Part shown: positions 33,553-47,422 of the stretch, piece after piece
Layout: every line of letters starts with the position of its first letter
How positions within the stretch are numbered: position 1 is the stretch's first letter
NCBI RefSeq assembly: GCF_009725985.1
Contig: NZ_RCNR01000005.1
Coordinates: 1-64,000, forward strand
Direction: 5' to 3'
From: Zobellia amurskyensis
GTDB lineage: Bacteria; Bacteroidota; Bacteroidia; Flavobacteriales; Flavobacteriaceae
Length of the DNA stretch: 64,000 nt
Program-made: the position numbers and the translations under genes
The notes under the pieces: model-generated
Told to the model about the DNA's origin: nothing
What the model saw: only the letters and a program-made list of their open reading frames with translations
Databases searched by the model: none

Positions 33553-34914
33553 ATGCCTAATTCTCCTGCCACATACTGGAAACTCCACAAGGTGCCCATA
33601 TTCCTAGCACTAATAGGTGCTTTTCTTTACTACACCTTTGCCTTTCAGTTAGAGCGAACGGACTTTATAAAGCTATTAACGCTGTTTGCGGCTTCCTTTT
33701 TTTTATGTTACAAGCTGATACAATTTGAAAAATGGAACTTTAAATTTCTTCTGGTAGCAGGTATTCTATTTAGGTTGATTTTCTTGACTACCGAACCCAA
33801 TCTCTCACAGGATTATTATCGCTTTATTTGGGACGGACACTTAGTGGGCAATTTCATTAACCCCTACTTAGAAGTCCCCAACGACTTAATTACCCAAAGC
33901 GACTTGGTAATACCCAATGCCCAGCTTCTTTACGACAGCATGGGAAGCCTAAGCGCTAAACACTTTAGCAATTACCCTCCATTAAATCAATTACTATTCG
34001 CCATTGCTTCAATTTTAGGCGGCAAAAGTATTGTGGGCTCGGTACTAGTTCTGAAAACCATTATTATTCTGGCGGATATAGGTATTTTCTACTTTGGGAG
34101 AAAACTATTAAAACATCTTAATCGTTCGCCTCATCTTATTTTTTGGTATTTCTTGAATCCCTTGGTAATTATTGAGCTTACGGGAAATCTGCATTTTGAA
34201 GGCGTGATGCTTTTCTTTTTTGTCTGGGCCCTGTATTTGTTATCCATTAAAAAATGGACCTTGGCAGCCATTCCCTATGCACTATCCATATGCGTAAAAC
34301 TAGTTCCTTTATTGTTTCTTCCCCTTTTTCTAAAACATCTAGGGTTTAAAAAAAGTGTAAGCTTCTATACGGTAATTGGGGTTACGTGCCTTATATTATT
34401 TATTCCCTTTTACTCTTCGGAATTTATTGCGAACTACTCCAAAACCGTTGGCTTATGGTTTTCAAATTTTGAATTTAATGCCGGCCTATACAATGCTATA
34501 AAATATATTGCTATTCAGTTTGATGGAAAACCTTGGGAACTTATAAAAACCTATGGTAAAATAACCCCCATCATAACTATTCTTGCCGTACTGTTCTTTA
34601 CCTTTTTTAGAGATAACCAAAAAATATCCGTTCTCTTAACTTCAATGCTGGCCGTACTTACCCTTTACTACTTCATGTCTGCCACAGTACACCCTTGGTA
34701 CATTATATTTTTGGTAGTGCTTGGCATTTTCACCCGCTATAAATATGCTATACTTTGGTCCGCTACGGTAATACTTAGCTATTACGCCTATTCAAAGATG
34801 GACTTTAAAGAAAATTTAGGATTAATTGCCGTTGAATATATTTCCGTATATGCGTTTTTGATTTACGAAATTTTTAACTCAAGAGAGCAATTTGTTATTT
34901 TTCGCAAAAATTAA
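33553..34914 (+). CDS. polytopic mannosyltransferase-like GT-C protein
   Basis: This 453-residue protein has about ten hydrophobic helices. The first periplasmic loop contains NLSQDYYRFIWDGHLVGNFINPY, where the acidic D-x5-D pattern resembles the catalytic loop of GT-C enzymes (DUF2029/PIG-M-like). Such enzymes use polyprenyl-phosphate sugars, which fits the DPM-like GT2 encoded upstream. It ends before the promoter of the arginine operon. Confidence 0.8.
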   Translation: MPNSPATYWKLHKVPIFLALIGAFLYYTFAFQLERTDFIKLLTLFAASFFLCYKLIQFEKWNFKFLLVAGILFRLIFLTTEPNLSQDYYRFIWDGHLVGNFINPYLEVPNDLITQSDLVIPNAQLLYDSMGSLSAKHFSNYPPLNQLLFAIASILGGKSIVGSVLVLKTIIILADIGIFYFGRKLLKHLNRSPHLIFWYFLNPLVIIELTGNLHFEGVMLFFFVWALYLLSIKKWTLAAIPYALSICVKLVPLLFLPLFLKHLGFKKSVSFYTVIGVTCLILFIPFYSSEFIANYSKTVGLWFSNFEFNAGLYNAIKYIAIQFDGKPWELIKTYGKITPIITILAVLFFTFFRDNQKISVLLTSMLAVLTLYYFMSATVHPWYIIFLVVLGIFTRYKYAILWSATVILSYYAYSKMDFKENLGLIAVEYISVYAFLIYEIFNSREQFVIFRKN

Positions 34915-34946
34915 CCGCACACCTTTATACTTTCGTCATAATCTTG

Positions 34947-34954
34947 TACATTTG
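34947..34954 (+). promoter_or_regulatory. promoter of the arginine/proline operon
   Basis: TACATTTG is an exact TAnnTTTG box. TTTA sits 19 nt upstream at 34924-34927, where TTTG is expected. The start point is predicted at about 34960, only a base or two before the ATG of the leader peptide. Confidence 0.65.
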
Positions 34955-34961
34955 ATCTTCC

Positions 34962-35042
34962 ATGAAAGGACAAAGACACATATCTAAAACTTTGAGCAAC
35001 CTTGCTCCAGTTCGCCCGTTTTCTCGTCGCCGTCGCCCGTAA
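34962..35042 (+). CDS. arginine-rich leader peptide of the arg operon
   Basis: This 26-codon ORF begins with ATG right after the promoter and ends with TAA. Six codons are Arg: residue 5 (AGA), 18 (CGC) and 22-25 (CGT CGC CGT CGC), giving the end PFSRRRRP. It is too short for routine gene calling. By analogy with the his, trp and leu leader peptides, ribosome stalling at the Arg run when charged tRNA-Arg is scarce should change the folding of the mRNA behind it and so control the operon. The next gene starts 90 nt after its stop. I know of no named homologue. The position, the promoter and the codon run together make it convincing. Confidence 0.75.
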   Translation: MKGQRHISKTLSNLAPVRPFSRRRRP

Positions 35043-35111
35043 GGGTGTTCCATATTTCATGGGAATAGGTGAGTCCATTTCCGCACAACGACCAACAATT
35101 CATTATTTTTT
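34994..35111 (+). promoter_or_regulatory. arg leader RNA with alternative hairpins
   Basis: Hairpins that can be drawn are as follows. GAGCA/TGCTC (34994-34998 with 35003-35007) lies inside the leader ORF. CGCCC/GGGTG (35034-35038 with 35043-35047) takes in the last Arg and Pro codons and spans the stop. TTCCAT pairs with 35059-35065, with one bulge. GGGAAT/ATTTCC (35061-35066 with 35077-35082) uses the same bases 35061-35065 as the previous hairpin, so those two exclude each other. TCGCC inside the Arg run can also pair with GGTGA at 35068-35072. A run of six T lies at 35106-35111, but 23 nt from the last stem, so it is not a classical terminator. The mechanism could be Rho-dependent or translational. 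Confidence 0.5.
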
Positions 35112-35132
35112 ACAGTTTAAATCCTTTTGGCA

Positions 35133-35756
35133 ATGAAACTAATTATTGCTAACAAGTCACATGTTAAATACGCCCAAATCATTAGCGATACCATTACGGA
35201 ATCTGCTAAGGTAAGAGGCACTGGCATAGCAAAGCGTACACCTGAATACATTCAGAAACGCTTAGAAAACGGCAATGCCGTAATTGCCTTAGACGGAGAC
35301 AAGTTTGCTGGCTTCTGCTATATAGAAGTATGGGGGCACGAAAAATTCGTGGCCAACTCTGGCCTTATTGTTCACCCTGATTATAGAAATCAAGGGTTGG
35401 CCAAAGCAATTAAAAAAAGAATCTTCGAGCTTTCGAGAGAGAAATTTCCGGATGCCAAAATATTTGGTATCACTACGGGGCTGGCCGTAATGAAAATGAA
35501 CTATGAACTTGGCTACAAACCAGTTACATTTTCAGAACTAACGGACGACCCGGAATTTTGGAAAGGCTGTCAGACTTGCAAAAACTTTGATATTCTAACT
35601 CGTACGGAACGTAAAATGTGCCTTTGTACAGGTATGCTCTACGATTCCAATGCGAAAGAAAAAAAGGTTGAAAAGGAACAAGTCAACAGCAAAGCCTTTA
35701 AAAGACTTAAAAGCATTAAAGAATCGCTTTTCCTAAAAAAGAAAACAAACGAATAA
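35133..35756 (+). CDS. GNAT N-acyltransferase, first gene of the arginine operon
   Basis: This 207-residue acyl-CoA transferase of the GNAT fold has the acyl-CoA binding motif HPDYRNQGLAKAI near 88. It carries an unusual C-terminal Cys cluster, CQTC near 147 and CLCTG near 166, that could bind metal. It opens the operon, where the pathway needs an enzyme to acylate glutamate. I therefore infer N-acyl(acetyl or succinyl)glutamate synthase activity, replacing ArgA/ArgJ, which are not present in the window. The ATG at 35133 is preferred to the TTG two codons upstream. Confidence 0.8.
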   Translation: MKLIIANKSHVKYAQIISDTITESAKVRGTGIAKRTPEYIQKRLENGNAVIALDGDKFAGFCYIEVWGHEKFVANSGLIVHPDYRNQGLAKAIKKRIFELSREKFPDAKIFGITTGLAVMKMNYELGYKPVTFSELTDDPEFWKGCQTCKNFDILTRTERKMCLCTGMLYDSNAKEKKVEKEQVNSKAFKRLKSIKESLFLKKKTNE

Positions 35757-35809: not shown

Positions 35810-37000
35810 ATGAAAAAATTAGTTTTAGCATATAGCGGCGGATTAGACACTTCCTATTGCGCTAAATACCTATCACAAGAAGAAGGTTTTGATGTACACG
35901 CAGTAAGTGTAAATACAGGTGGTTTCTCTAAAGAAGAGATTGCTTCCATAGAAGAAAAAGCAATTCAATTGGGCGCTAGTTCGTACACTTCTATTGATGC
36001 CGTTCAGACCTTTTATGATAAAGTTGTTAAATACCTCATCTTCGGTAATGTTCTAAAAAACAATACCTACCCCCTATCAGTTAGTGCTGAACGAATAGTA
36101 CAGGCTATAGAGATAGTAACTTATGCCAAAAAAATTGGCGCGAATTATATTGCTCACGGTAGTACGGGTGCAGGTAATGACCAAGTTCGTTTTGATATGA
36201 TTTTCCAAATCATAGCCCCAGAAATTGAAATCATCACTCCAATTAGGGATAACAAACTAGCCAGGGAAGCAGAAATTGAATACCTAAAACAAAACGGTGT
36301 AGATTACCCTTGGGAAAAAGCTAAGTACTCTATAAACAGAGGGCTTTGGGGTACTTCCGTTGGTGGTGAAGAAACATTAACTTCTCAAAAAGCATTACCG
36401 GATAGTGCATACCCGAGTCAATTACAAGAAAAAGAGCCTACTGATGTAACCTTAACCTTTGAAAAAGGGGAATTAGTTGCGATTGACGGGGTTAAAAATG
36501 GTCCTGTTGCCAATATAGAAAAGTTAGAAGCTATGGCCTCTAAATATGCTATTGGGCGAGACATACATGTTGGTGACACCATTATTGGTACAAAAGGAAG
36601 GGTTGGTTTTGAAGCCGCTGCCGCATTAATTATCATAAAAGCACACCATTTATTAGAAAAACATACGCTTAGCAAATGGCAACAGTTCCAGAAAGAACAA
36701 CAAGGTAATTTCTATGGCATGCTATTGCACGAAGGCAACTACCTAGATGCCGTAATGAGAAATATTGAAACTTTCTTAACGGACACGCAAAAGAACGTTT
36801 CCGGTGATGTTTTCATAAGTCTTTACCCTTTCCAGTTTAGACTGAACGGAATTTCATCTAAACATGATTTAATGACAGATGCTTTTGGTAGTTATGGTGA
36901 AGTAAACAAAGGATGGTCTGCTGATGACGCCAAAGGTTTCATTAAAATACTTTCCAATTCCGGAAAAATATATAACCATGTAAACGGCCAGAATGAATAG
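35810..37000 (+). CDS. argG: argininosuccinate synthase
   Basis: ArgG joins citrulline and aspartate with ATP. The 396-residue protein has the PP-loop AYSGGLDTSYC at residues 7-17, GSTGAGNDQVRFD near 119 and KYSINRGLWG near 170. Length is normal. Its stop is overlapped by 8 nt by the start of a small unknown gene. Confidence 0.96.
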   Translation: MKKLVLAYSGGLDTSYCAKYLSQEEGFDVHAVSVNTGGFSKEEIASIEEKAIQLGASSYTSIDAVQTFYDKVVKYLIFGNVLKNNTYPLSVSAERIVQAIEIVTYAKKIGANYIAHGSTGAGNDQVRFDMIFQIIAPEIEIITPIRDNKLAREAEIEYLKQNGVDYPWEKAKYSINRGLWGTSVGGEETLTSQKALPDSAYPSQLQEKEPTDVTLTFEKGELVAIDGVKNGPVANIEKLEAMASKYAIGRDIHVGDTIIGTKGRVGFEAAAALIIIKAHHLLEKHTLSKWQQFQKEQQGNFYGMLLHEGNYLDAVMRNIETFLTDTQKNVSGDVFISLYPFQFRLNGISSKHDLMTDAFGSYGEVNKGWSADDAKGFIKILSNSGKIYNHVNGQNE

Positions 37001-37403
37001 TATCTTAAAATTACTTGAAACAAGGAGTCTCTATATTCACTTAATGTTATTTAAAATCTATTTGTCAAATAATGGAAAAACGAAATTTCCATATAATGGC
37101 AATTTGCAAAAAGAAATAAAAGAATTTTTTGCTTCAGAATATGACATTGAAGAATATAGGATTGCAGAAGAATATTTAATATCCGAAGGCCTTGTCAATG
37201 ATAAATTTCTAGGCCTTTCAGTTAAAGGTAGAACATATTTTGAAAATTGGATAAAAGAGTTTGAAAACCTAAGCGAAGAAGATCAACAAAATTTAAACGA
37301 AAGTTTATCTCCAAAGATTTCGAAATTTTTTGAACTAACCGATAAAGTAACTAAAGTTGCTACGTTGGTTACAAAATTAGTTGAATTAAGTAGTAAAATA
37401 TGA
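36993..37403 (+). CDS. hypothetical protein inserted between argG and argC
   Basis: This 136-residue acidic, Lys/Glu/Leu-rich, helix-forming protein has no motif that I recognise. It overlaps argG by 8 nt and argC by 4 nt, so translation is coupled. The gene is more A/T-rich than its neighbours and uses many AT-ending codons. Residues 20-80 might form a winged-helix-like fold (inference from a helix pattern and KGRTYFENW). The C-terminal 25 residues form an amphipathic helix. In most flavobacteria I know of, argG and argC are adjacent, so this looks like an insertion. Confidence 0.7.
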   Translation: MNSILKLLETRSLYIHLMLFKIYLSNNGKTKFPYNGNLQKEIKEFFASEYDIEEYRIAEEYLISEGLVNDKFLGLSVKGRTYFENWIKEFENLSEEDQQNLNESLSPKISKFFELTDKVTKVATLVTKLVELSSKI

Positions 37404-38374
37404 TTAAAGCAGGAATTATTGGCGGTTCTGGTTATACAGGAGGGGAACTCATTAGAATTCTTTTGCACCACCCTGAAGCTGAAATAGATTTTGTATTCAG
37501 TACCACCAGAGCCGGCAAGAAAGTTACAACGGCGCATGCCGATTTATTGGGAACCACTGAAATGAAATTTACAGGGAGTATCAACCCTGATGTAGACGTT
37601 GTGTTTTTATGTCTAGGTCATGGTAACTCCTCTAAGTTTCTACAGGAAAATGAGTTTTCGAAAGACACGAAGATAATTGACCTTAGCAACGATTTCAGAC
37701 TGCAGGCCGATGCTGTTTTTGAAGGAAAGAAATTCGTTTACGGACTTCCCGAACTCAAAAAGGAAGAGATAAAAAAAGCCAACTATATCGCTAACCCTGG
37801 TTGTTTTGCAACCGCTATTCAATTGGGTCTTTTACCCTTAGCGAAAGCAAACAAGTTGAAGAATACCGTTCATATCAACGCGGTAACGGGTAGTACCGGT
37901 GCAGGAGTCAGCCCTTCCGCTACTTCGCACTTTAGCTGGAGAAATAATAACGTGAGTTGGTACAAACCTTTCACCCATCAACATTTGGGAGAGATAAACG
38001 AAAGTTTAAAATCGTTGCAATCAGATTCAGGTGAGCTGTTTTTTCTGCCTAACCGCGGAAACTTCACTCGTGGTATTCTTGCTACAGCCTATACAGAATA
38101 TGACGACAGTTTAGAGGAGGCTATTGAGTTGTACAAAGATTTTTATGCGGATGCACAGTTTACGCAAGTAGCCGAAGAGCCCATCCACCTAAAACAGATT
38201 GTAAATACCAATCAGTGTCATATTCATTTGCATAAGCATGAAAACACGTTGCTTATCACCTCGGCCATAGACAATTTGCTCAAAGGTGCATCGGGACAAG
38301 CAGTTCAGAATATGAACCTTATTTTCGGCTTTGAAGAAGGCACAGGCCTTAACCTTAAAGCTGGCGTTTTTTAG
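37400..38374 (+). CDS. argC: N-acetyl-gamma-glutamyl-phosphate reductase
   Basis: ArgC reduces acylglutamyl phosphate to the semialdehyde. The 324-residue protein has the NADP motif GGSGYTGGELIRIL at residue 8 and the active-site Cys in NPGCFATAI near 134. HINAVTGSTGAG follows. Its ATG overlaps the unknown gene's stop by 4 nt. The substrate may be succinylated (see ArgF'). Confidence 0.95.
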   Translation: MIKAGIIGGSGYTGGELIRILLHHPEAEIDFVFSTTRAGKKVTTAHADLLGTTEMKFTGSINPDVDVVFLCLGHGNSSKFLQENEFSKDTKIIDLSNDFRLQADAVFEGKKFVYGLPELKKEEIKKANYIANPGCFATAIQLGLLPLAKANKLKNTVHINAVTGSTGAGVSPSATSHFSWRNNNVSWYKPFTHQHLGEINESLKSLQSDSGELFFLPNRGNFTRGILATAYTEYDDSLEEAIELYKDFYADAQFTQVAEEPIHLKQIVNTNQCHIHLHKHENTLLITSAIDNLLKGASGQAVQNMNLIFGFEEGTGLNLKAGVF

Positions 38375-38391
38375 AGATTAATAGAAAACTA

Positions 38392-38429
38392 TTTCCGTAA
38401 TAAAGGTCTTATTGGACCTCAAACGGAAA
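38392..38429 (+). other. nested stem-loop between argC and proC
   Basis: A perfect 7-bp outer stem TTTCCGT/ACGGAAA (38392-38398 with 38423-38429) encloses a 5-bp stem AGGTC/GACCT. No T-run follows, so a role in mRNA stability or in setting relative expression is more likely than termination. Confidence 0.55.
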
Positions 38430-38446
38430 CAACCAAAAACTTGAAA

Positions 38447-39247
38447 ATGAAAATAGCCATAATAGGAGCTGGAAACTTAGGACTCTCCATTGCAAAGGGG
38501 ATTTTAAATTCTAATGGTGCTACAACCATGTACCTGACCAAAAGAAACACCTCGGAAATAGAGGAGTATGAAAAATACGGCAATGTCACCATCACTTCTG
38601 ACAACAGAGAAGCGGTTAAAAATTCCGATATTCTTATTTTGGCCGTACAGCCCAGTCAATTGGAGAGCATTCTGGAAAGTACCAAAGATTTGCTTACTGA
38701 AAAACATGTGGTCATTTCTACCATAACCGGTTTCAGTATTGCAAAGATGGAGGTTATTCTAGGCGAAGACTGCAACATCATTAGAAGTATGCCAAATACG
38801 GCTATTTCGGTAGGTCAATCCATGACGTGTATTTGCAGTAACGAAAAAGGCAAAAAGAAAATTGATTTAGCGAAGGCCATTTTCAATCGTATGGGACATT
38901 CAATGGAAATTCCAGAAGGACAAATGCAAGCCGCAACGGTTATATGTGCCAGTGGCATCGCTTTCTGGATGCGCTTAATACGTGCTACCACCCAAGGTGC
39001 TATTCAGTTAGGTTTTGATGCCAAGGAAGCGCAAGAATTAGCTATGCATACCTGTAGTGGGGCAGCTAGCCTGTTAATTGAATCCGGAAGTCACCCAGAA
39101 GCAGAAATTGATAAGGTAACGACCCCAAAAGGCTGTACCATCCAAGGCCTTAATGAAATGGAGCACCAAGGACTTAGTTCCTCCCTTATTCAGGGTATTG
39201 TGGCTTCCTATGAAAAAATCAGTAGAATTAAAGAGGGCCAGTTGTAA
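38447..39247 (+). CDS. proC: pyrroline-5-carboxylate reductase
   Basis: ProC makes proline from pyrroline-5-carboxylate. The 266-residue protein has IIGAGNLGLSIAKGIL at the N terminus for NAD(P)H. It has RSMPNTAISVGQSMT near 110 and a C-terminal domain with SGIAFWMRLI and TTPKGCTIQGLNEME. The ATG at 38447 is preferred over TTG at 38441. Confidence 0.94.
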   Translation: MKIAIIGAGNLGLSIAKGILNSNGATTMYLTKRNTSEIEEYEKYGNVTITSDNREAVKNSDILILAVQPSQLESILESTKDLLTEKHVVISTITGFSIAKMEVILGEDCNIIRSMPNTAISVGQSMTCICSNEKGKKKIDLAKAIFNRMGHSMEIPEGQMQAATVICASGIAFWMRLIRATTQGAIQLGFDAKEAQELAMHTCSGAASLLIESGSHPEAEIDKVTTPKGCTIQGLNEMEHQGLSSSLIQGIVASYEKISRIKEGQL

Positions 39248-39301
39248 AACCCCTCGCTAAAAAATGTGCCAGAAGATATGATCAGCACAACAGCAAAAGT
39301 T

Positions 39302-40426
39302 ATGAATTTATTTGATGTTTACCCATTATACGATGTAACCCCGGTTTCGGCAAAAGGGATAGTAGTAACTGATGACAAAGGAACGGAATACCTAGATTTC
39401 TACGGAGGACATGCCGTAATTTCTATAGGTCACTCCCATCCGCATTACGTAAAACGCCTAACCGACCAGTTGAACAAAATAGGCTTTTACAGTAACTCCG
39501 TAAAGAACCCATTGCAGGAGGAACTGGCTACTAAACTTGGTCAGCTCTCAAATTGCGAGAATTACAATTTATTTTTATGTAATTCAGGTGCTGAAGCTAA
39601 TGAAAACGCTTTAAAACTAGCTTCTTTCCACACTGGAAAGTCTAGGGTAATTGCATTCACCAATGGTTTTCACGGCCGTACATCTGCAGCCGTTGCCGCT
39701 ACGGACAACCCAAAGATAAATGCACCTATCAATTTACAACAAAAGGTTACTTTTCTTCCGCTGAACGATTTAGAAGCATTTCAAGCCGAAATAGAAAAAG
39801 GAGATGTATGTGCGGTTATCATAGAAACCATACAAGGTGTTGGTGGATTAGATGAACCAACGACCGAATTTTATCAAGAAGTTGCCTCACTTTCCAAAGC
39901 AAACGAAGCTATATTGATTGCTGATGAAGTACAATGTGGTTTTGGCCGAAGCGGTAAATTCTTCGCTTTTCAACATCACAATATTCAACCGGATATTATT
40001 TCGGTAGCAAAAGGAATGGGCAACGGTTTTCCTGTGGGAGGCATTTTAATACATGAAGATATTAAAGCTTCTCATGGTTTATTGGGCACCACTTTTGGCG
40101 GAAACCATTTAGCTTCCGTGGCTACTTTAGCTGTTCTAGAAGTATTGGAAGATGAGAAGCTCATTGAAAACGCAGCTCATTTAGAAGGTTATTTCAGAGC
40201 GCTTGCTGCAGAAATACCACAAATCAAAAAAGTTAAAGGCCGAGGACTTATGTTGGGACTTGAATTTGATTTTGAGGTGGCCGATTTAAGAAAGCGACTG
40301 ATTCACAACCAAAAACTATTTACCGGAGGCGCCAAAGACAAGTATGTCTTAAGGGTCCTTCCTGCTTTAAATATTACCGAAGCCTACTTGGACACCTTTT
40401 TCACCGCCTTAAAAGCTGAATTGTAA
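39302..40426 (+). CDS. argD: acylornithine aminotransferase
   Basis: This PLP-dependent class III aminotransferase is about 374 residues long. It has YGGHAVISIGHSHPHYV near 27, the PLP-binding segment NSGAEANENALK, IIETIQGVGG, DEVQCGFGRSG, and the PLP lysine in VAKGMGNGFPVGG. The ATG at 39302 (MNLFDVYPLYDV) fits the usual start of the family. A GTG at 39266 and an ATG at 39278 are in frame upstream. Its stop overlaps the proA start. Confidence 0.93.
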   Translation: MNLFDVYPLYDVTPVSAKGIVVTDDKGTEYLDFYGGHAVISIGHSHPHYVKRLTDQLNKIGFYSNSVKNPLQEELATKLGQLSNCENYNLFLCNSGAEANENALKLASFHTGKSRVIAFTNGFHGRTSAAVAATDNPKINAPINLQQKVTFLPLNDLEAFQAEIEKGDVCAVIIETIQGVGGLDEPTTEFYQEVASLSKANEAILIADEVQCGFGRSGKFFAFQHHNIQPDIISVAKGMGNGFPVGGILIHEDIKASHGLLGTTFGGNHLASVATLAVLEVLEDEKLIENAAHLEGYFRALAAEIPQIKKVKGRGLMLGLEFDFEVADLRKRLIHNQKLFTGGAKDKYVLRVLPALNITEAYLDTFFTALKAEL

Positions 40427-41625
40427 TGAGTTTATTATTGAATATAAAACAACGCAACGCCGTACTTTCAGATATGGCCCACCTACTGGACAAGGAGCGG
40501 ACCGCTATTCTTGCTGCCAATAAAGTGGATATGGATACCTACGCAGGTGATGATATTGCCATGCGCGATCGTCTTAAAGTAGACCAAGGTAAAATAGACG
40601 GTATGATTTTGAGCCTGCAACAACTTGCGGCACAAGAGGATCCCCTAGGCGTGGAACGTTTTAGTTTTGAGCATGACAATGGTATGCAGGTAAGTAACAA
40701 AACTGCTCCTTTTGGAACGATTCTTATTATTTATGAATCTAGACCGGATGTTACTATTGAAGCTGCAGGTATCGCCTTTAAATCTGGCAACAAGATTTTA
40801 TTGAAAGGTGGAAAAGAGTCTTTAAACAGTAATTTATTACTAGTTGATTTATGGCATAAGGCGCTCGAAGCCAACGAAGCTGAAATTGAATGGGTTACCT
40901 ATCTACAATTCGACAGAACGGAAACACAGGCTTTTCTAGAAAAGCCTACCCAAAAAGTAGACCTTATTGTGCCTAGAGGTGGCGAAAGACTAATTGCTTT
41001 TGTAAAACAACATGCAACATGCCCAGTAATTATCAGTGGTCGTGGCAATAACTTTGTTTATGTAGGTGAAGAAGCAGATTTGGAAATGGCCATAGATATT
41101 ATCATTAATGGTAAGACCACTAAAATATCTGCCTGCAACGCAGTTGACAAGGTGCTGATTTCTTCGGATTTGCCCCGCAAACAACAGTTTCTTCAGCATT
41201 TAATTCAAGAATTACAGAAGAGTAATGTTGAAATCCTAGCCGATGACGCTATTGCCGGAATGGAAGGAACAAAAGCTATAGAGAATGATAACGTCTGGTA
41301 CGAAGAGTTCCTAGATTACAAAATCGTAATCGGACAAAGCTCTGATCTAGAAGACGCCATTTCCAAAATAAACACCTACGGAGGGGGACATTCAGCAGCT
41401 ATTATTACTGCAAACAATGAAAAGGCCGAGTATTTCATGAATAATGTAGATACAGCAGCGGTCTACCACAATGCCTCTACCCGCTTTACAGATGGCGGAC
41501 AATTTGGTCTGGGTGGTGAGCTTGCCATTAGTACGGACAAATTACACCAAAGAGGCCCTATAGGTCTTCAACATTTGGTAACCAACAAATGGTATGTAAA
41601 AGGAAACGGGCAAACAAGAGGATAA
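40426..41625 (+). CDS. proA: gamma-glutamyl phosphate reductase
   Basis: ProA reduces glutamyl-5-phosphate. The 399-residue aldehyde-dehydrogenase-fold protein has FGTILIIYESRPDVTIEAAGIA near 90 and KSGNKILLKGGKES near 113. The active-site Cys is in ISACNAVDKVL near 239, and HNASTRFTDGGQFGLGGE is near 345. It starts within the argD stop (TAATG) and precedes proB by 45 nt. Confidence 0.95.
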   Translation: MSLLLNIKQRNAVLSDMAHLLDKERTAILAANKVDMDTYAGDDIAMRDRLKVDQGKIDGMILSLQQLAAQEDPLGVERFSFEHDNGMQVSNKTAPFGTILIIYESRPDVTIEAAGIAFKSGNKILLKGGKESLNSNLLLVDLWHKALEANEAEIEWVTYLQFDRTETQAFLEKPTQKVDLIVPRGGERLIAFVKQHATCPVIISGRGNNFVYVGEEADLEMAIDIIINGKTTKISACNAVDKVLISSDLPRKQQFLQHLIQELQKSNVEILADDAIAGMEGTKAIENDNVWYEEFLDYKIVIGQSSDLEDAISKINTYGGGHSAAIITANNEKAEYFMNNVDTAAVYHNASTRFTDGGQFGLGGELAISTDKLHQRGPIGLQHLVTNKWYVKGNGQTRG

Positions 41626-41670
41626 ATTTCAATTTCCCTTTATCTGCCAAATGATGTAAAAGAACACCTA

Positions 41671-42459
41671 ATGAAAAAAAGGATTTTATTAAAAATAGGC
41701 TCTAACACCTTAACCAAGGAAACCGATCAGATTTCCCGAGGAAAGATAGAGGATATAGGCAGGCAGATAGCTTCGCTCAAAGAGGACTATGAGTTTATTA
41801 TTGTGAGTTCGGGCGCTATTGCCGCAGCCAAACAATTCGTAAAACTGGAACACAATGGAGAAGATATAAACGTAAAACAAGCCCTAGCTGCCATTGGACA
41901 ACCCCATTTAATGCGTATGTTCCAAGAAAGCTTTAGAGAGCTTGGCCTTTTTTCAGCACAGTGTCTTTTATCGTATTCAGACTTTGAGAACCCAAAATCC
42001 AAAGCCAACATCAAAAATACCATAGACATCTTGGTTAGCAACAATTTCATTCCCATTATTAATGAAAATGACACGGTTGCTGCAGATGAAATTCAATTTG
42101 GTGATAACGATAAATTAGCGGCACTAACAGCAGCGCTTCTTAAAGCGGACCTTTTGATGATTGCCACCAATACAGATGGTATCTACACCAAAATTTCCAT
42201 AGAGAATGGGAAACCAGAGACCATTTCCGAAGTGTTGGGCGTCTCTAGTTTACAACAAGAAGTTAGCTCTGGAAAATCATCACACGGTACTGGCGGAATG
42301 CAGTCAAAAGTTGAAGCTGCGACCATTGCGCAGAATGCAGGTATAGAAACATGGATTGTAAACGGACTTAACGATAGCTTCATTACGGATGCTTTTTCGG
42401 GTTCAGGAAACCATACCAAAATCAAAACCAAAAACGGTCACTTTTCAGAAGACCATTGA
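41671..42459 (+). CDS. proB: glutamate 5-kinase
   Basis: ProB phosphorylates glutamate in proline synthesis. The 262-residue amino-acid-kinase protein has LLKIGSNTLTKE at residue 4, VSSGAIAAAK near 45, NENDTVAADEIQFGDNDKLAA near 130 and GTGGMQSKVEAA near 209. It lacks the C-terminal PUA domain of the E. coli enzyme, which affects regulation, and this is normal for many bacteria. Confidence 0.94.
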   Translation: MKKRILLKIGSNTLTKETDQISRGKIEDIGRQIASLKEDYEFIIVSSGAIAAAKQFVKLEHNGEDINVKQALAAIGQPHLMRMFQESFRELGLFSAQCLLSYSDFENPKSKANIKNTIDILVSNNFIPIINENDTVAADEIQFGDNDKLAALTAALLKADLLMIATNTDGIYTKISIENGKPETISEVLGVSSLQQEVSSGKSSHGTGGMQSKVEAATIAQNAGIETWIVNGLNDSFITDAFSGSGNHTKIKTKNGHFSEDH

Positions 42460-42517
42460 TGTATAATGCATCGACAGAAAATAAATAAATAGGAATAGCC
42501 AGAGAAACAGAGCACAA

Positions 42518-43456
42518 ATGAAACATTACCTTTCTTTACAAGACATAGATTCGTTAAACAATTGGGTGGAAGAAGCCCGAGACTTAAAAGAAGACCCAAG
42601 AAAACACAAAGGCCTAGGTTCAGATAAAACTATTGGTTTATTGTTCTTCAACAACAGTCTTCGTACGCGCTTAAGTACTCAAAAAGCAGCTATGAACCTT
42701 GGATTGGAAGTTATTGTCATGAACTTTGGAAGTGAAGGATGGGCTTTAGAATATGGCGATGGAACTGTCATGGACCAAGGTACTTCCGAACATATTAAGG
42801 AAGCGGCACAAGTTATATCACAGTATTGTGATATTGTTGCCATTAGAGCGTTTGCCGGATTAAAGGACAAAGAAGAAGATGAGGCCGAAAAGGTTTTGAA
42901 CGGATTTAAAAAATACGCTAGTGTACCCATTGTAAATATGGAAAGTTCGGTAGGGCACCCATTACAAGCCTTGGCCGATGCTATTACTCTGGCTGAACAA
43001 AACACCAAAGCAAAGCCCAAAGTGGTACTTTCTTGGGCGCCACACCCAAAAGCGTTACCTCATGCAGTTGCAAATTCTTTTGTTGAGATGATGCATTTGC
43101 AAGATGCCGATTTTGTTATTACACACCCCGAAGGTTACGAATTGAACCCTGAAATCACCAAAGGAGCAACCATAGAATACGACCAAAAGAAAGCCTGTGA
43201 AAATGCCGACTTCATTTACGTGAAGAACTGGAGCAGTTACAATGACTATGGCAAAGTACTGAACCAAGATAAAAACTGGACGATGACCCCGGAAAAAGTG
43301 GGCAACGCTAAATTCATGCATTGCCTTCCGGTACGTAGAAATATAGTGGTTGCGGATGCTGTCCTAGATGGCGACCAATCTTTGGTTATAGAACAGGCCA
43401 ACAACAGAACTTACGCTGCACAAATTGTATTGAAGAAAATCTTGGAGAACAATTAA
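42518..43456 (+). CDS. argF': N-succinylornithine (acylornithine) carbamoyltransferase
   Basis: This 312-residue enzyme has the acyl-ornithine transcarbamylase signatures FFNNSLRTRLSTQ (carbamoyl phosphate site), HCLPVRRN and WAPHPKALPHAV, and not those of ordinary OTCase. In published work on this family, residue 90 (Bacteroides numbering) sets specificity: Glu in acetyl-ornithine enzymes, Pro in the succinyl-ornithine enzyme. Here it is Ser90 in TSEH. Work on the Xanthomonas enzyme reported that replacing that Glu with Ser shifts it to succinylornithine. I therefore predict the succinyl form. Confidence 0.9.
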   Translation: MKHYLSLQDIDSLNNWVEEARDLKEDPRKHKGLGSDKTIGLLFFNNSLRTRLSTQKAAMNLGLEVIVMNFGSEGWALEYGDGTVMDQGTSEHIKEAAQVISQYCDIVAIRAFAGLKDKEEDEAEKVLNGFKKYASVPIVNMESSVGHPLQALADAITLAEQNTKAKPKVVLSWAPHPKALPHAVANSFVEMMHLQDADFVITHPEGYELNPEITKGATIEYDQKKACENADFIYVKNWSSYNDYGKVLNQDKNWTMTPEKVGNAKFMHCLPVRRNIVVADAVLDGDQSLVIEQANNRTYAAQIVLKKILENN

Positions 43457-43462
43457 AAAACC

Positions 43463-44215
43463 TTGACCATTAAAAAACTAGAAAACAAAGTATGCATAGT
43501 AACTGGGGCCACCAGTGGAATGGGCAAGGCAATAGCCGAGCTTTTTTCTCTTGAAGGTGCCAAGTTGGTGCTTTCTGGTCGAAATGAAGAACAAGGTTCG
43601 TTATTGGTAGAGGAATTACCTAATTCCGTATTTGTACCTGGTGACGTTACAGAGTCCGCATATAATGAGACCTTAGTGGCAACGGCAATAAAAGAATTTG
43701 GCAAGCTTGACATCATTTGTTTAAATGCCGGAATTCTAGGTTTGGGAAATGTTGTAGACCTTTCCGATTCTTTATGGAACAATACAATAGCCACAAATTT
43801 AACCAGCATTTATTTTCTGTCTAAATTTGCGATTCCCCATTTGCAAAAGCAGAACGGAACCATCTTAATTAACGCATCTATAGCCGCTTATAAGAGTTTT
43901 CCCAACCATCCGGCCTATTGTGCGTCAAAAGCGGGCGCCGTAGCATTAATGAAACAAATGGCGGTAGAGTACGCACCTAACATAAGGGTTAATGCTATTT
44001 GTCCAGGACCTGTAGACACACCGTTATTATGGGATTCTGCAGAGGCTTTTGATAACCCAAAAGAAGCAGTTGCCAGCGCCGAAGGCGCCACTTTATTAAA
44101 ACGCTTAGGGCAACCAATAGATATCGCAAAACTTGCTCTTTTTCTAGTGTCCGATGATTCTTCATGGATTACCGGAACAGCAATGACCATTGATGGGGGC
44201 ATTCTAAATACTTAA
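43463..44215 (+). CDS. SDR-family oxidoreductase within the arginine operon
   Basis: This is a 250-residue classical short-chain dehydrogenase. The cofactor site is VTGATSGMGKAIAELF near 13, with NAG near 84, catalytic Ser in INASIAA, and YCASKAG near 151. C-terminal WITGTAMTIDGG is typical. The best start is the TTG at 43463, because no in-frame ATG precedes the Rossmann motif. It lies 6 nt after argF' and ends 1 nt before argB. It has no obvious step in arginine synthesis. Confidence 0.88.
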   Translation: MTIKKLENKVCIVTGATSGMGKAIAELFSLEGAKLVLSGRNEEQGSLLVEELPNSVFVPGDVTESAYNETLVATAIKEFGKLDIICLNAGILGLGNVVDLSDSLWNNTIATNLTSIYFLSKFAIPHLQKQNGTILINASIAAYKSFPNHPAYCASKAGAVALMKQMAVEYAPNIRVNAICPGPVDTPLLWDSAEAFDNPKEAVASAEGATLLKRLGQPIDIAKLALFLVSDDSSWITGTAMTIDGGILNT

Positions 44216-44216
44216 A

Positions 44217-44996
44217 ATGAAACAGAAACTATCTATCATAAAAATAGGCGGTAACGTCATTGAAAACAAAGAGGAACTTTCTAAGTTTCTAAAAGCATTT
44301 TCTGAACTGGAAGGTCCAAAAATATTGGTTCATGGCGGCGGAAAACTGGCCACCCAATTGGGCAAAAAATTAGGTATAGAATCCAAACTCATAGGCGGAC
44401 GCCGTATTACAGATGAAAAAAGCCTTGAACTGATCACCATGGTCTATGGCGGACTCGTCAATAAAAATATCGTAGCGGAGCTACAATCCTTGAATTGTAA
44501 TGCTATTGGACTTAGCGGTGCGGACGGAGATACCATTCAAGCGCACAAAAGACCTGTAAAAGATATTGATTACGGCTTTGCTGGAGATGTTGATGGCATT
44601 AACGCCTCAACTATTACAAAACTCTTGGAGGCAGGCCTCAATCCCGTTTTTTGTGCGATGACCCATGACGGTAATGGACAATTGTTGAATACCAACGCAG
44701 ATACCATTGCTTCTGAGTTGGCCATTGGCATGAGTGCCAATTACGAAACCACCCTTTATTATTGTTTTGAGAAAAAGGGCGTCCTTATGGATGTAGCCGA
44801 TGATGAATCCGTAGTAAAACATATTGATAGCGCATCATATCAAGACTTATTGGAACAGAAAATTATTGCTGATGGCATGCTTCCAAAGATGGAAAATTGT
44901 TTTCACGCTTTACAAAAAAACGTACATCAGGTACGTATTGGGGACATTAGCATGTTAGACCCTAAATCGACTTTATTCACTACCCTTACCCTATAA
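44217..44996 (+). CDS. argB: acetylglutamate (acylglutamate) kinase
   Basis: ArgB phosphorylates the acylated glutamate. The 259-residue protein has IKIGGNVIENKEEL at residue 8, KILVHGGGKLATQLGKKLG near 34 and GLSGADGD near 97, with NTNADTIASELAI near 160. It lacks the N-terminal helix of the arginine-inhibited hexameric kinases, so feedback inhibition by arginine may be weak. That would fit control by the leader peptide (inference). Confidence 0.94.
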   Translation: MKQKLSIIKIGGNVIENKEELSKFLKAFSELEGPKILVHGGGKLATQLGKKLGIESKLIGGRRITDEKSLELITMVYGGLVNKNIVAELQSLNCNAIGLSGADGDTIQAHKRPVKDIDYGFAGDVDGINASTITKLLEAGLNPVFCAMTHDGNGQLLNTNADTIASELAIGMSANYETTLYYCFEKKGVLMDVADDESVVKHIDSASYQDLLEQKIIADGMLPKMENCFHALQKNVHQVRIGDISMLDPKSTLFTTLTL

Positions 44997-44998
44997 AA

Positions 44999-46063
44999 AT
45001 GGAACAAGCAGCATTAACGCAAAAAGCAATAGACCTATTAAAAGAACTGATTTCGATTCAATCGTTTTCATCTGAAGAGGATAAAACTGCGGACGCCATT
45101 GAAAACTGGTTCAAGGCTTTTGACATTCCTTTTAAACGTCACTTGAACAATGTCTACGCGGTAAACAAACATTACGACGAAAGCAAGCCTACCTTGCTTC
45201 TGAATTCGCATCACGATACGGTAAAACCTAATTCGGCTTATACCAAAGACCCTTTTAACCCACATATTGAAGATGGAAAACTTTATGGTTTGGGCAGTAA
45301 CGATGCCGGTGGCGCTTTGGTTTCCCTTATCGCAACTTTCACCCACTATTATGCGGAAGAAAACCTAAATCATAACATTCTAATGGTAGCTTCCATGGAA
45401 GAAGAAAGTTCAGGTCCTAATAGCCTTCGTGGACTTTTACCTCATCTACCAAAGATTGATGTTGCCATTGTGGGCGAACCTACTTTGCTGGATTTAGCCA
45501 TAGCTGAAAAAGGATTGGTTGTTTTTGACGCGGTGATAAAAGGCACTCCATCGCATGCCGCACACCCCAACGATAACAACTCCATTTACAACACCATTGA
45601 AGTTCTGGAGTGGTTTAAAAACTATAAGTTCAATAAGGTTTCGGAAGCCCTGGGCCCCGTAAAATTAACGGTTACACAAATTAACGGAGGCTCACAACAT
45701 AACGTGGTTCCTGCACAGGTAGACTTGGTTATTGATGTGCGTGTAAACGACAAATACACCAACGGAGAAATTGCTGAAATTCTAAAGAAAGAAGCGCCTT
45801 GTGAATTAAAGGAGCGCTCATTAAAACTGAATTCTTCGGCTATTGATAAAAATCATCCATTAGTGCAGTCGGGAATTGCATTAGGAAGAAAAACCTACGG
45901 CTCCCCTACTCTCTCGGACCAAGCCGCATTAACCTGTCAGTCCCTTAAATTAGGGCCTGGGGATAGCACACGATCACATTCGGCGGATGAATACATCTAC
46001 GTCAAAGAAATAGAAGACGGAATAGATTTGTATATTAATTTATTGAAAGGATTTATAAAATAG
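44999..46063 (+). CDS. argE: acylornithine/acylcitrulline deacylase (M20 peptidase)
   Basis: This 354-residue zinc deacylase of the M20/DapE-ArgE family has metal ligands in LLLNSHHDTVKPN near 70, LGSNDAGGALVSL near 100 and the catalytic MEEESSGPNSL near 134. Given Ser90 of ArgF', the natural substrate may be N-succinylcitrulline. It starts 2 nt after argB. The downstream spacer to argH holds a large palindrome. Confidence 0.9.
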   Translation: MEQAALTQKAIDLLKELISIQSFSSEEDKTADAIENWFKAFDIPFKRHLNNVYAVNKHYDESKPTLLLNSHHDTVKPNSAYTKDPFNPHIEDGKLYGLGSNDAGGALVSLIATFTHYYAEENLNHNILMVASMEEESSGPNSLRGLLPHLPKIDVAIVGEPTLLDLAIAEKGLVVFDAVIKGTPSHAAHPNDNNSIYNTIEVLEWFKNYKFNKVSEALGPVKLTVTQINGGSQHNVVPAQVDLVIDVRVNDKYTNGEIAEILKKEAPCELKERSLKLNSSAIDKNHPLVQSGIALGRKTYGSPTLSDQAALTCQSLKLGPGDSTRSHSADEYIYVKEIEDGIDLYINLLKGFIK

Positions 46064-46075
46064 CGATTAGTACAA

Positions 46076-46113
46076 AGTACCGAGTATTGAGATTAATCTC
46101 AATACTCGGTACT
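46076..46113. repeat. 38-bp perfect palindrome between argE and argH
   Basis: AGTACCGAGTATTGAGATT at 46076-46094 is followed directly by its exact reverse complement at 46095-46113, with no spacer. Partial copies of the motif (CAATACT, ACTCAACACT) trail after it to about 46135. No T-run follows. It looks like a REP-type extragenic element. In RNA it would form a very stable hairpin just before argH. Confidence 0.8.
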
Positions 46114-46141
46114 CAATACTAACTACTCAACACTAAGAAAA

Positions 46142-47422
46142 ATGAAACTCTGGGACAAAGGCTTTAGCACCGATAAAAAAATAGACCATTTCACTGTTGG
46201 AAACGACCGTGAGCTTGATTTACACTTGGCGAAATACGACGTTATTGCTTCGCAGGCGCATGCCAAAATGCTGGGTAAAATAGGACTGTTGACCAATGAG
46301 GAAACTACGGACTTGGTAAAAGAATTGGATGCCATTGCCGAAACCATTGAAAAAGGCGAGTTCGTAATTGAAGATTCGTTTGAGGACATGCACTCAAAAA
46401 TAGAATATGTACTCACTGAAAAACTTGGCGACACCGGTAAAAAAATACACACCGCACGGTCTAGAAACGATCAAGTTTTGGTGGCCATGCACCTATACCT
46501 GAAAAACGAACTTTCAGAAATAAAATCAAGCACCAAGGAGTTGTTTGATTTGCTTTTGGAACTTGCCAAAAAGCACAAAGACGTTTTGCTTCCGGGATAT
46601 ACCCATTTACAGATTGCAATGCCATCTTCTTTTGGGCTGTGGTTATCGGCTTATGCAGAAAGTCTTATTGATGATTTATATTTTGTTGATGCAGCTTATA
46701 AGGTAGCTGACCAAAATCCTTTAGGAAGTGCAGCCGGTTATGGAAGCTCCTTCCCTATAGACCGTAGTTTCACGACAAAGGAAATGGGTTTTGAAACTTT
46801 AAAATATAACGTTGTTGCTGCTCAAATGGGCCGTGGCAAAGTGGAGAAAGCAACTGCTTTTGGCATGGCAAATATTGCCGCTACCCTATCAAAACTGGCT
46901 ATGGACATCTGTTTGTACATGAGTCAGAATTTCAACTTTCTGTCCTTTCCAGATGAGTTGACCACCGGTAGCAGTATTATGCCGCACAAGAAAAACCCTG
47001 ATGTTTTTGAACTGGTGCGGGGTAAATGCAACAAGCTACAGAGCATACCCAACCAGTTGACTTTGGTCATCAACAACCTACCAAGCGGGTATCACCGTGA
47101 TCTGCAATTGGTAAAGGAAATTATTGTTCCCGCCATTCAGGATATGAAGGCGTGTATTGAGATTCTTACTTTCAGCCTTAAAGAAATGCAGGTGAACAAA
47201 GGCATTTTGGAAGACCCGAAATACGATTATCTCTTTAGTGTAGACACATTGAACGAATTGGTACAAAGCGGGTTACCCTTTAGAGATGCCTACAAAAAAA
47301 TGGGCCAAGAAATTCAAGAAGGCACCTTTACGCCAAAGCGAGATATTCATCATACGCATGAAGGCAGTTTAGGTAATTTATGTCTGGAGGAGATTAAAGG
47401 GAAGATGGACAAAATTTCTTAA
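46142..47422 (+). CDS. argH: argininosuccinate lyase
   Basis: ArgH splits argininosuccinate to arginine and fumarate, the last step. The 426-residue protein has TARSRNDQVLVAMHLYLKN near 105, TTGSSIMPHKKNPD near 280 as the fumarase/lyase signature, and HTHEGSLGNL near the end. Length is a little under the usual 450-460 because the C-terminal part is short. Confidence 0.95.
   Translation: MKLWDKGFSTDKKIDHFTVGNDRELDLHLAKYDVIASQAHAKMLGKIGLLTNEETTDLVKELDAIAETIEKGEFVIEDSFEDMHSKIEYVLTEKLGDTGKKIHTARSRNDQVLVAMHLYLKNELSEIKSSTKELFDLLLELAKKHKDVLLPGYTHLQIAMPSSFGLWLSAYAESLIDDLYFVDAAYKVADQNPLGSAAGYGSSFPIDRSFTTKEMGFETLKYNVVAAQMGRGKVEKATAFGMANIAATLSKLAMDICLYMSQNFNFLSFPDELTTGSSIMPHKKNPDVFELVRGKCNKLQSIPNQLTLVINNLPSGYHRDLQLVKEIIVPAIQDMKACIEILTFSLKEMQVNKGILEDPKYDYLFSVDTLNELVQSGLPFRDAYKKMGQEIQEGTFTPKRDIHHTHEGSLGNLCLEEIKGKMDKIS

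Follow-up and report, generated by a model that had tools for sequence, protein, structure and literature searches.

Introduction

The attenuators of the his, trp and leu operons have, between the promoter and the biosynthetic genes, a short open reading frame (ORF) in which codons for the end product form a run. In the parts of their study that concern attenuator codons, Elf and Ehrenberg (PMC1183508) describe selective charging of isoacceptors, Arg tRNAs included, and argue that attenuator codons favour the isoacceptor that is most sensitive to starvation. In the ilvB leaders of Actinobacteria, the regulatory codons overlap a candidate terminator hairpin; the codons are those of branched-chain amino acids, the terminators carry poly-U tracts, and the sections describing them speak of no further conserved hairpin (PMC1262725). 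Those sections also present the actinobacterial LEU element, which combines a leader ORF with a conserved fold of unclear mode of action, and which has a pseudoknot and a base stem to the Shine-Dalgarno box, with no conserved unpaired nucleotides.

Leaders that sense arginine itself have been described elsewhere. In orf34 of the Salmonella speF leader, as far as its published description goes, consecutive Arg codons sense arginine and a hairpin follows the stop codon; that leader is long, responds to ornithine and serves putrescine synthesis, and its rare and frequent Arg codons are equivalent (PMC6386406; the comparison made here is by description, not by sequence). In the eight-residue rbfL of Staphylococcus aureus, Arg codons of one tRNA (AGA/AGG) report arginine shortage, and translation of a biofilm regulator is blocked, according to the relevant passages of PMC13009471. 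Within the family Flavobacteriaceae, strong clues for attenuation before amino-acid operons come from Flavobacterium psychrophilum, arginine operons not being named in the passages concerned (PMC9723704), and leader-like short ORFs are mentioned in Bacteroides in the passages of PMC7366714 on this subject. No arginine leader in Flavobacteriaceae was found when the open-access literature was searched for such leaders and for arginine regulation; the supplement of PMC9723704, which lay outside that search, may list one.

Here we describe a leader that precedes the arginine operon of Zobellia amurskyensis, in a stretch of 64,000 nucleotides referred to as the window, and compare it among Flavobacteriaceae. 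It shares with classical attenuators the Arg-codon ORF and the use of codons of a chosen isoacceptor (as set out for such attenuators in PMC1183508), with the ilvB leaders the overlap of regulatory codons and hairpin, with the LEU element a conserved fold next to a leader ORF, and with orf34 and rbfL the use of Arg codons. It differs from classical attenuators in its regulated amino acid, arginine, in the failure to find a strong terminator or an antiterminator, in the position of the last Arg codon inside a hairpin, in its near-leaderless ORF and in the presence of an extra hairpin, H3.

A leader ORF at the head of the arginine operon

The leader ORF (34962..35042, plus strand) runs from ATG to TAA over 26 codons, encodes MKGQRHISKTLSNLAPVRPFSRRRRP and contains, just as the original prediction had it, six Arg codons, at residues 5, 18 and 22–25; its frame and Arg-rich end are kept in relatives. 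The Arg run had been placed just before the stop: the four consecutive Arg codons (22–25) are indeed there, but a Pro codon (CCG, residue 26) separates them from the stop codon. R18 and R22–R25 make up the sensor stretch (35013..35036, plus strand), in which each Arg codon is CGC or CGT, and R5, further upstream, is AGA.

From the end of the leader stop codon to the first gene there are 90 nt, the distance given in the prediction. This gene encodes a GNAT-family acetyltransferase (35133..35756, plus strand; PF00583), its start being taken as the ATG at 35133. The rest of the operon (35810..47422, plus strand), named from Pfam and NCBIfam matches and from recall, comprises argG, a 136-aa ORF, argC, proC, argD, proA, proB, a carbamoyltransferase gene, an SDR gene, argB, an ArgE/DapE-like gene and an argH-like gene, in that order. 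The 136-aa ORF (36993-37403), in the interval between argG and argC, has no match in Pfam or NCBIfam, and the top NCBIfam match of the carbamoyltransferase is N-acetylornithine carbamoyltransferase, at 287.9 bits against a cut-off of 288. The genes that we take to be proA and proB are so called by recall from sequence, Pfam family and position, and the argH-like gene is presumed to be such by recall from its sequence.

A promoter had been predicted directly upstream of the ORF, and a −7 box of the TAnnTTTG type, TACATTTG (34947..34954, plus strand), ends 7 nt 5' of the ATG. A short ORF with a run of end-product codons therefore lies between promoter and operon, which is the arrangement of known attenuator leaders. 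Because such boxes are placed at positions −12 to −5 in the promoter description of PMC9723704, the transcript is predicted to start at about 34959, that is, about 3 nt before the ATG, with a 5' untranslated region of about 3 nt. A TAnnTTT box ending 3–10 nt before an in-frame start codon occurs in 81 of 115 non-redundant loci, compared with 1/115 and 3/115 for the other frames and a mean of 0.95 with shuffled upstream sequence; the remaining 34 of 115 have no box-plus-start under this rule. A scan of the window with a sigma-70 consensus gave no match on the plus strand. In the relative studied in PMC9723704, leaderless mRNAs make up only 5.5%, and Shine-Dalgarno sequences are described there as largely absent in the phylum, where a near-leaderless ORF is of interest for that reason.

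Distribution among Flavobacteriaceae

Of 299 family genomes, 200 contain a match to the first gene; three of these matches (G152, G173 and G271) are weak and may not be to the same gene. The conserved RNA element, which consists of the hairpins H2 and H3 described below (35029..35086, plus strand), is matched by two covariance models, R1 and R2, built from 23 and 100 sequences of the same locus set, so that matches within that set are partly by construction. R2 matches 182 of the 299 genomes, once per genome; 181 of these also match the first gene (G152 weakly) and one lacks it, 19 genomes have the first gene without an R2 match, and 98 have neither gene nor element. The window genome has a single element match at E≤0.001, a second R1 match standing at E 2.57.

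At the level of loci, 150 (L002–L151) were examined, including that of the window's own genome, 30 of them obtained from the first-gene search and 120 fetched further. In 143 of the 150, the H3 loop word stands where it is expected ahead of the first gene; this is the fair figure for its conservation, since the 143 loci were chosen by this word and the 100% of its fixed loop bases among them is by construction. It is absent there in L039, L047, L054, L071, L090, L101 and L102; five of the genomes behind these seven loci (G070, G115, G134, G061 and G185) match R2, and G140 and G110 do not. Removal of loci with >85% identity over 74 bases thinned the 143 to 115 non-redundant loci, the window's included. 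The H2 word fits 112 of these, about 30–36 nt 5' of the H3 word; for L072, L089 and L149, where it does not fit, the frame was set from a CGC codon. All 80 named loci carry the leader with both words, at least 12 of the 80 being contigs already counted among the other loci. By genome (182/299) as by locus (143/150), the leader is thus found in relatives at the place predicted.

In two genomes, the leader precedes a different first gene, which has no Pfam match in G084 (L188) and is a distant GNAT in G152 (L189), and argG and argC follow. Because the leader is kept before another gene in these genomes, it seems, from gene order, to go with the operon rather than with the first gene. A scan of the phylum with R1 (395 genomes) gave 14 matches and a scan of the order with R2 (296 genomes) gave 22, all in Flavobacteriaceae, the share of other families in either sample being unstated. 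Upstream regions were inspected in 11 of the 19 genomes that have the gene only: in four (G033, G081, G216 and G218) a diverged leader was recognised by eye, and in the remainder the leader was doubtful or absent, G127 being among those where it was absent. In the genus of G127, four genomes with the GNAT gene (L176–L178 and L185) have no Arg leader in the 260 bases upstream. The diverged leaders L174, L179 and L183 show, by eye, Arg codons and an H2-like hairpin, with the H3 loop changed or missing.

Constraint on the leader reading frame

In all 115 non-redundant loci, the 20 codons 5' of H2 are open in frame, compared with 37/115 and 36/115 for the other two frames, and Arg occupies 240 of 920 positions at codons −9 to −2, compared with 50/920 and 24/920, the frame having been set by the search itself, which fixed codon 0 as CGC. 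Because both counts exceed those of the other frames, the leader ORF goes beyond chance. Arg is found at codon −1 in 92% of the 115 loci, and Phe and Pro are often retained 5' of the Arg run.

The expectation that followed from the prediction was that the Arg-run end of the ORF would be kept while the rest diverges. This holds for the 26-codon and 27-codon leaders, in which pN/pS is 0.28 and 0.33 respectively for the seven codons before the final Arg-Pro, compared with 0.68 and 0.96 for the rest of the leader; it fails in the 28-codon leaders (n=11), where there is no such contrast (0.45 vs 0.42). These values come from 90 of 100 ORFs and from pairs with <35% divergence only, and the pairs are not independent.

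Codon choice and the tRNA probably sensed

The 240 Arg codons at positions −9 to −2 consist of 223 CGY, 12 AGR and 5 CGR codons, the last all CGA. Further upstream (−10 to −22) the pattern is reversed, with AGR at 41 of 53. As a baseline, the GNAT gene and the available part of argG use CGY for 22% and AGR for 50% of their Arg codons (n=1928), a set taken from 108 of 110 near-relative loci, with argG cut at the locus end, and hence narrower than that of the 115 leaders; against it, the CGY excess at −9 to −2 has a Fisher p of 3e-48. The contrast is milder with the 14 genes of the window, in which 61 of 134 Arg codons are CGY and 56 of 134 are AGR. The window leader itself follows the trend, with CGC or CGT at R18 and R22–25 and AGA at the distant R5. 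A bias that results from pairing with a following C or from local composition was considered; against this, CGY persists where no C follows (70/78), and 151 of 355 other fourfold codons in the sensor stretch have A or G as their third base.

CGU and CGC are both read by one tRNA, with anticodon ACG. The Arg tRNA genes found in the window genome have anticodons ACG, TCG, TCT and CCT (27 of 30 loci were scanned, the other three lying inside scanned neighbours), and eight further tRNA stretches of this genome contain no Arg tRNA. Given this set of anticodons, the CGU/CGC sensor codons correspond to one tRNA, tRNA-Arg(ACG). On codon counts, the choice made in the leader fits the selective-charging argument, at least in the form given in the attenuator passages of PMC1183508.

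The conserved end of the ORF might instead be that of an arrest peptide, whose Arg-rich nascent chain, as with TnaC or SpeFL, would stall the ribosome at the Pro-stop once free arginine or ornithine is bound in the exit tunnel. Pro follows the H2 Arg codon in 94% of the 115 loci, with the stop codon immediately after this position in 100 of them, and this agrees with such an arrest, as do the retained Phe and Pro residues and the low pN/pS near the end. An arrest peptide would, however, keep its end and its stop regardless of codons, and the dominance of CGY is not predicted at the peptide level. In addition, 15 of 115 loci have no stop at the usual place, the stop codons of the 143 loci vary (TAA 122, TAG 18 and TGA 3), and Thr replaces Pro in five loci, discussed below, in which the RNA stem changes. 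We consider arrest improbable, and the near-exclusive use of CGU/CGC favours a sensor of tRNA charging over it, as judged from these codon counts.

ArgR in the family

The original prediction took repression by ArgR to be the textbook model here. For other groups, textbooks give ArgR control as the model, and a Bacteroides genome carries the ArgR domain PF02863, which keeps in view a rival in which ArgR represses the operon and the leader ORF is a chance reading frame. That model is not a likely one in this family: PF02863 was found in 0 of 299 genomes, the window's own included, in a search that covered this ArgR domain alone and that matched 8 of 14 named control genomes, the Bacteroides among them. 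The statistics of frame and codons also oppose a chance ORF, and we regard this rival as extremely unlikely. Another regulator of the arginine operon may exist.

Two conserved hairpins, H2 and H3

Three hairpins can be drawn in the leader RNA. H1, a small hairpin inside the ORF (GAGCAA..UUGCUC; 34994..35007, plus strand), comes from the fold of the window leader and varies in sequence among relatives; the folding signal of the ORF part is moderate (mean z −0.89, 81 loci), and H1 is weakly supported.

H2 (CGCCC-GUAA-GGGUG; 35034..35047, plus strand) was recognised from the sequence and from pair counts over 100 sequences. Arg codon 25 and two bases of Pro codon 26 form its 5' arm, and the loop contains the stop codon. 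Across the 100 sequences, 94.6% of cells are paired in H2, and changes from C-G to A-U are seen in 4 and from G-U to G-C in 11. In the five loci mentioned above (L063, L067, L143, L147 and L150), the stem is CGCAC/GUGCG and the Pro codon becomes Thr; because Thr accompanies the change of the stem, RNA pairing seems to dictate this residue. A U-rich spacer follows (35048..35060, plus strand), with 6 U of 12 at 35048-35059 in the window and U at up to 79% per position in relatives (column profile, 112 loci).

H3 (35061..35082, plus strand), recognised by covariation and by its loop word, has a stem of GGGAAU/AUUUCC, a bulged A, GG/CC and the pentaloop UGAGU in the window. Across relatives, the stem of six pairs is kept, as are the bulge (one A or a few bases), GG/CC and a strongly conserved loop of the consensus UGNGU, and the lower stem shows two-sided changes in 6 of 6 pairs, with 96.7% of cells paired (100 sequences). 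For H2 and H3 together, 96.4% of cells pair in the 100 aligned sequences and 8 of 13 pairs have two-sided changes; the covariation score was reached by 0 of 500 shuffles and was lost when partners were slid, in an alignment that had been fitted to the structure. In a second alignment (A2), not fitted to the structure, 5 of 13 pairs have two-sided changes, every one of them belonging to H3, and the score is likewise reached by 0 of 500 shuffles; A2 holds 23 sequences of one bulge type in which H2 is nearly invariant, hence it is uninformative on H2.

Beyond H3 (35083-35100), an A tract is seen in relatives, at up to 67% per position, with a U-rich tract nearer to the gene start. H3 may resemble the MS2 coat-protein hairpin, and the word AGGUG a Shine-Dalgarno word.

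The conserved pentaloop and bulged A on a covarying stem could also belong to a riboswitch or protein site that senses arginine directly, the ORF being incidental. Frame, Arg-rich end and codon bias are, however, conserved in their own right, and in L174 and L183 the H3 loop is lost, as judged by eye, where Arg codons and an H2-like hairpin remain, so that direct sensing by H2-H3 is given very little credence, even less than arrest. A scan of 34600-35400 against Rfam 15, at E up to 5, gave a sole match, on the other strand and below the gathering score, and hence no usable match to a T-box, a known riboswitch or another Rfam leader.

Further pairings and contacts were considered and set aside. 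A contact between GGUG of the H3 loop and CGCC of the H2 arm is made less likely, though not impossible, by the loci in which H2 changes to CGCAC while the H3 loop is unchanged, since other CGCC words are present upstream in some of these loci. By eye, the ORF start CCATGAAA can pair with the spacer between H2 and H3 in the window and a few near relatives, but not in others. Binding of H3 by the Arg-rich peptide is put low on grounds of the codon bias.

Terminator evidence and the output of the leader

A terminator scan of the window gave none on the plus strand. By a loose rule, H2 and its U-rich tract are terminator-like in 58 of 115 loci, compared with 4.6 expected from single-base (not dinucleotide) shuffles, and 57 of 115 fail. 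The window's own H2 does not pass, and its energy, −7.9 kcal/mol, is far weaker than the −18.2 of the his terminator of the same genome. No antiterminator pairing was noticed by eye or in folds.

The his leader of this genome (L271, G000:C57), upstream of hisG, encodes MKNRTTHHHIHTHAQAR and is followed by a strong hairpin and a U-run; its ATG lies about 7 nt 3' of a TAnnTTT-like box. Because this His-codon leader with a strong terminator precedes the his operon, ordinary leader attenuation probably exists in the genome, as the sequence suggests, and the arginine leader is built differently. Since no strong terminator or antiterminator was found and the element has two conserved hairpins, the arginine leader is not a plain attenuator of the his/trp type.

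That the output of the leader is transcription termination is put at about even odds. The same sensor might act on another output, namely translation of the first gene, mRNA stability or access of Rho, and not on an intrinsic terminator. Such an output is in keeping with the lack of a strong terminator, with the RNA 3' of H3, which is G-poor and A-rich, then U-rich on approaching the start codon, and with the speF leader, which acts via Rho, RNase G and translation according to its published description (PMC6386406). Against it, a U-rich tract follows H2, there is no folding signal 3' of H3 (mean z 0.34, 81 loci), and the H3 loop lies 48 to 104 nt (mostly 50–60) from the start of the first gene, for whose start region no conserved pairing partner was seen. 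We therefore hold an output of this other kind to be possible and on balance rather unlikely.

Proposed mechanism

The comparison shows a conserved ORF, a sensor dominated by CGY, an Arg codon placed in the arm of H2 and a covarying H3, and further a tie with the arginine operon in a family in which ArgR was not found. We propose that the leader senses arginine by the position of the ribosome on CGY codons, with a probability of roughly 0.78. The prediction of control by ribosome position on Arg codons is in this respect well supported by frame, constraint and codon choice, and needs correction where it implied a plain his/trp attenuator; our verdict is ribosome-mediated attenuation in variant form, with a second RNA element of unexplained role.

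According to this proposal, the leader would sense the charging of one tRNA, tRNA-Arg(ACG). Transcription would start about 3 nt before the ATG, as judged from the promoter box, so that a ribosome could load immediately and translate the leader. When arginine is ample, the CGY codons would be read fast, and the ribosome would run on to the stop codon, which lies in the H2 loop, and leave; after its release, H2 would fold, presumably acting as a weak terminator or pause, and the operon would be turned down. If little of the tRNA-Arg(ACG) is charged, the ribosome would halt at a CGY codon within the 5' arm of H2 or immediately ahead of it and cover this arm; H2 would remain unfolded and the operon would be expressed. 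Direct masking of H2 by the stalled ribosome is the preferred output.

An ordinary ribosome footprint extends about 12 nt beyond the A site. The masking model is strained for Arg codons at −5 to −9, because a ribosome halted there leaves H2 uncovered, and the CGY bias holds at these codons as well.

H3 stands outside this stepwise account. Its strongly conserved loop suggests that it binds a factor (RNA polymerase, the ribosome or another protein) after the decision at H2. In the fuller version of the proposal, the leader would be a two-part device, in which H2 is masked by the ribosome that stalls on CGY codons, and H3, carried by the read-through transcript, recruits a factor or acts on the polymerase and commits this transcript to the operon; we offer this version tentatively, at somewhat less than even odds.

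Significance for arginine control in Flavobacteriaceae

Through the leader, the cell would probably detect a shortage of arginine with no need of the usual repressor, which suggests how arginine synthesis may be controlled in a large family whose genomes gave no match to the ArgR domain. H3 adds a conserved RNA motif without an Rfam match or known partner. Because the codons of the sensor are those of one among the four Arg tRNAs found, the leader may also serve as a natural test of selective tRNA charging. Arginine would join the amino acids that have a family-wide biosynthetic leader and, if the two-part device is true, Flavobacteriaceae would have their own arginine control, working without a strong terminator and of a kind undescribed so far.
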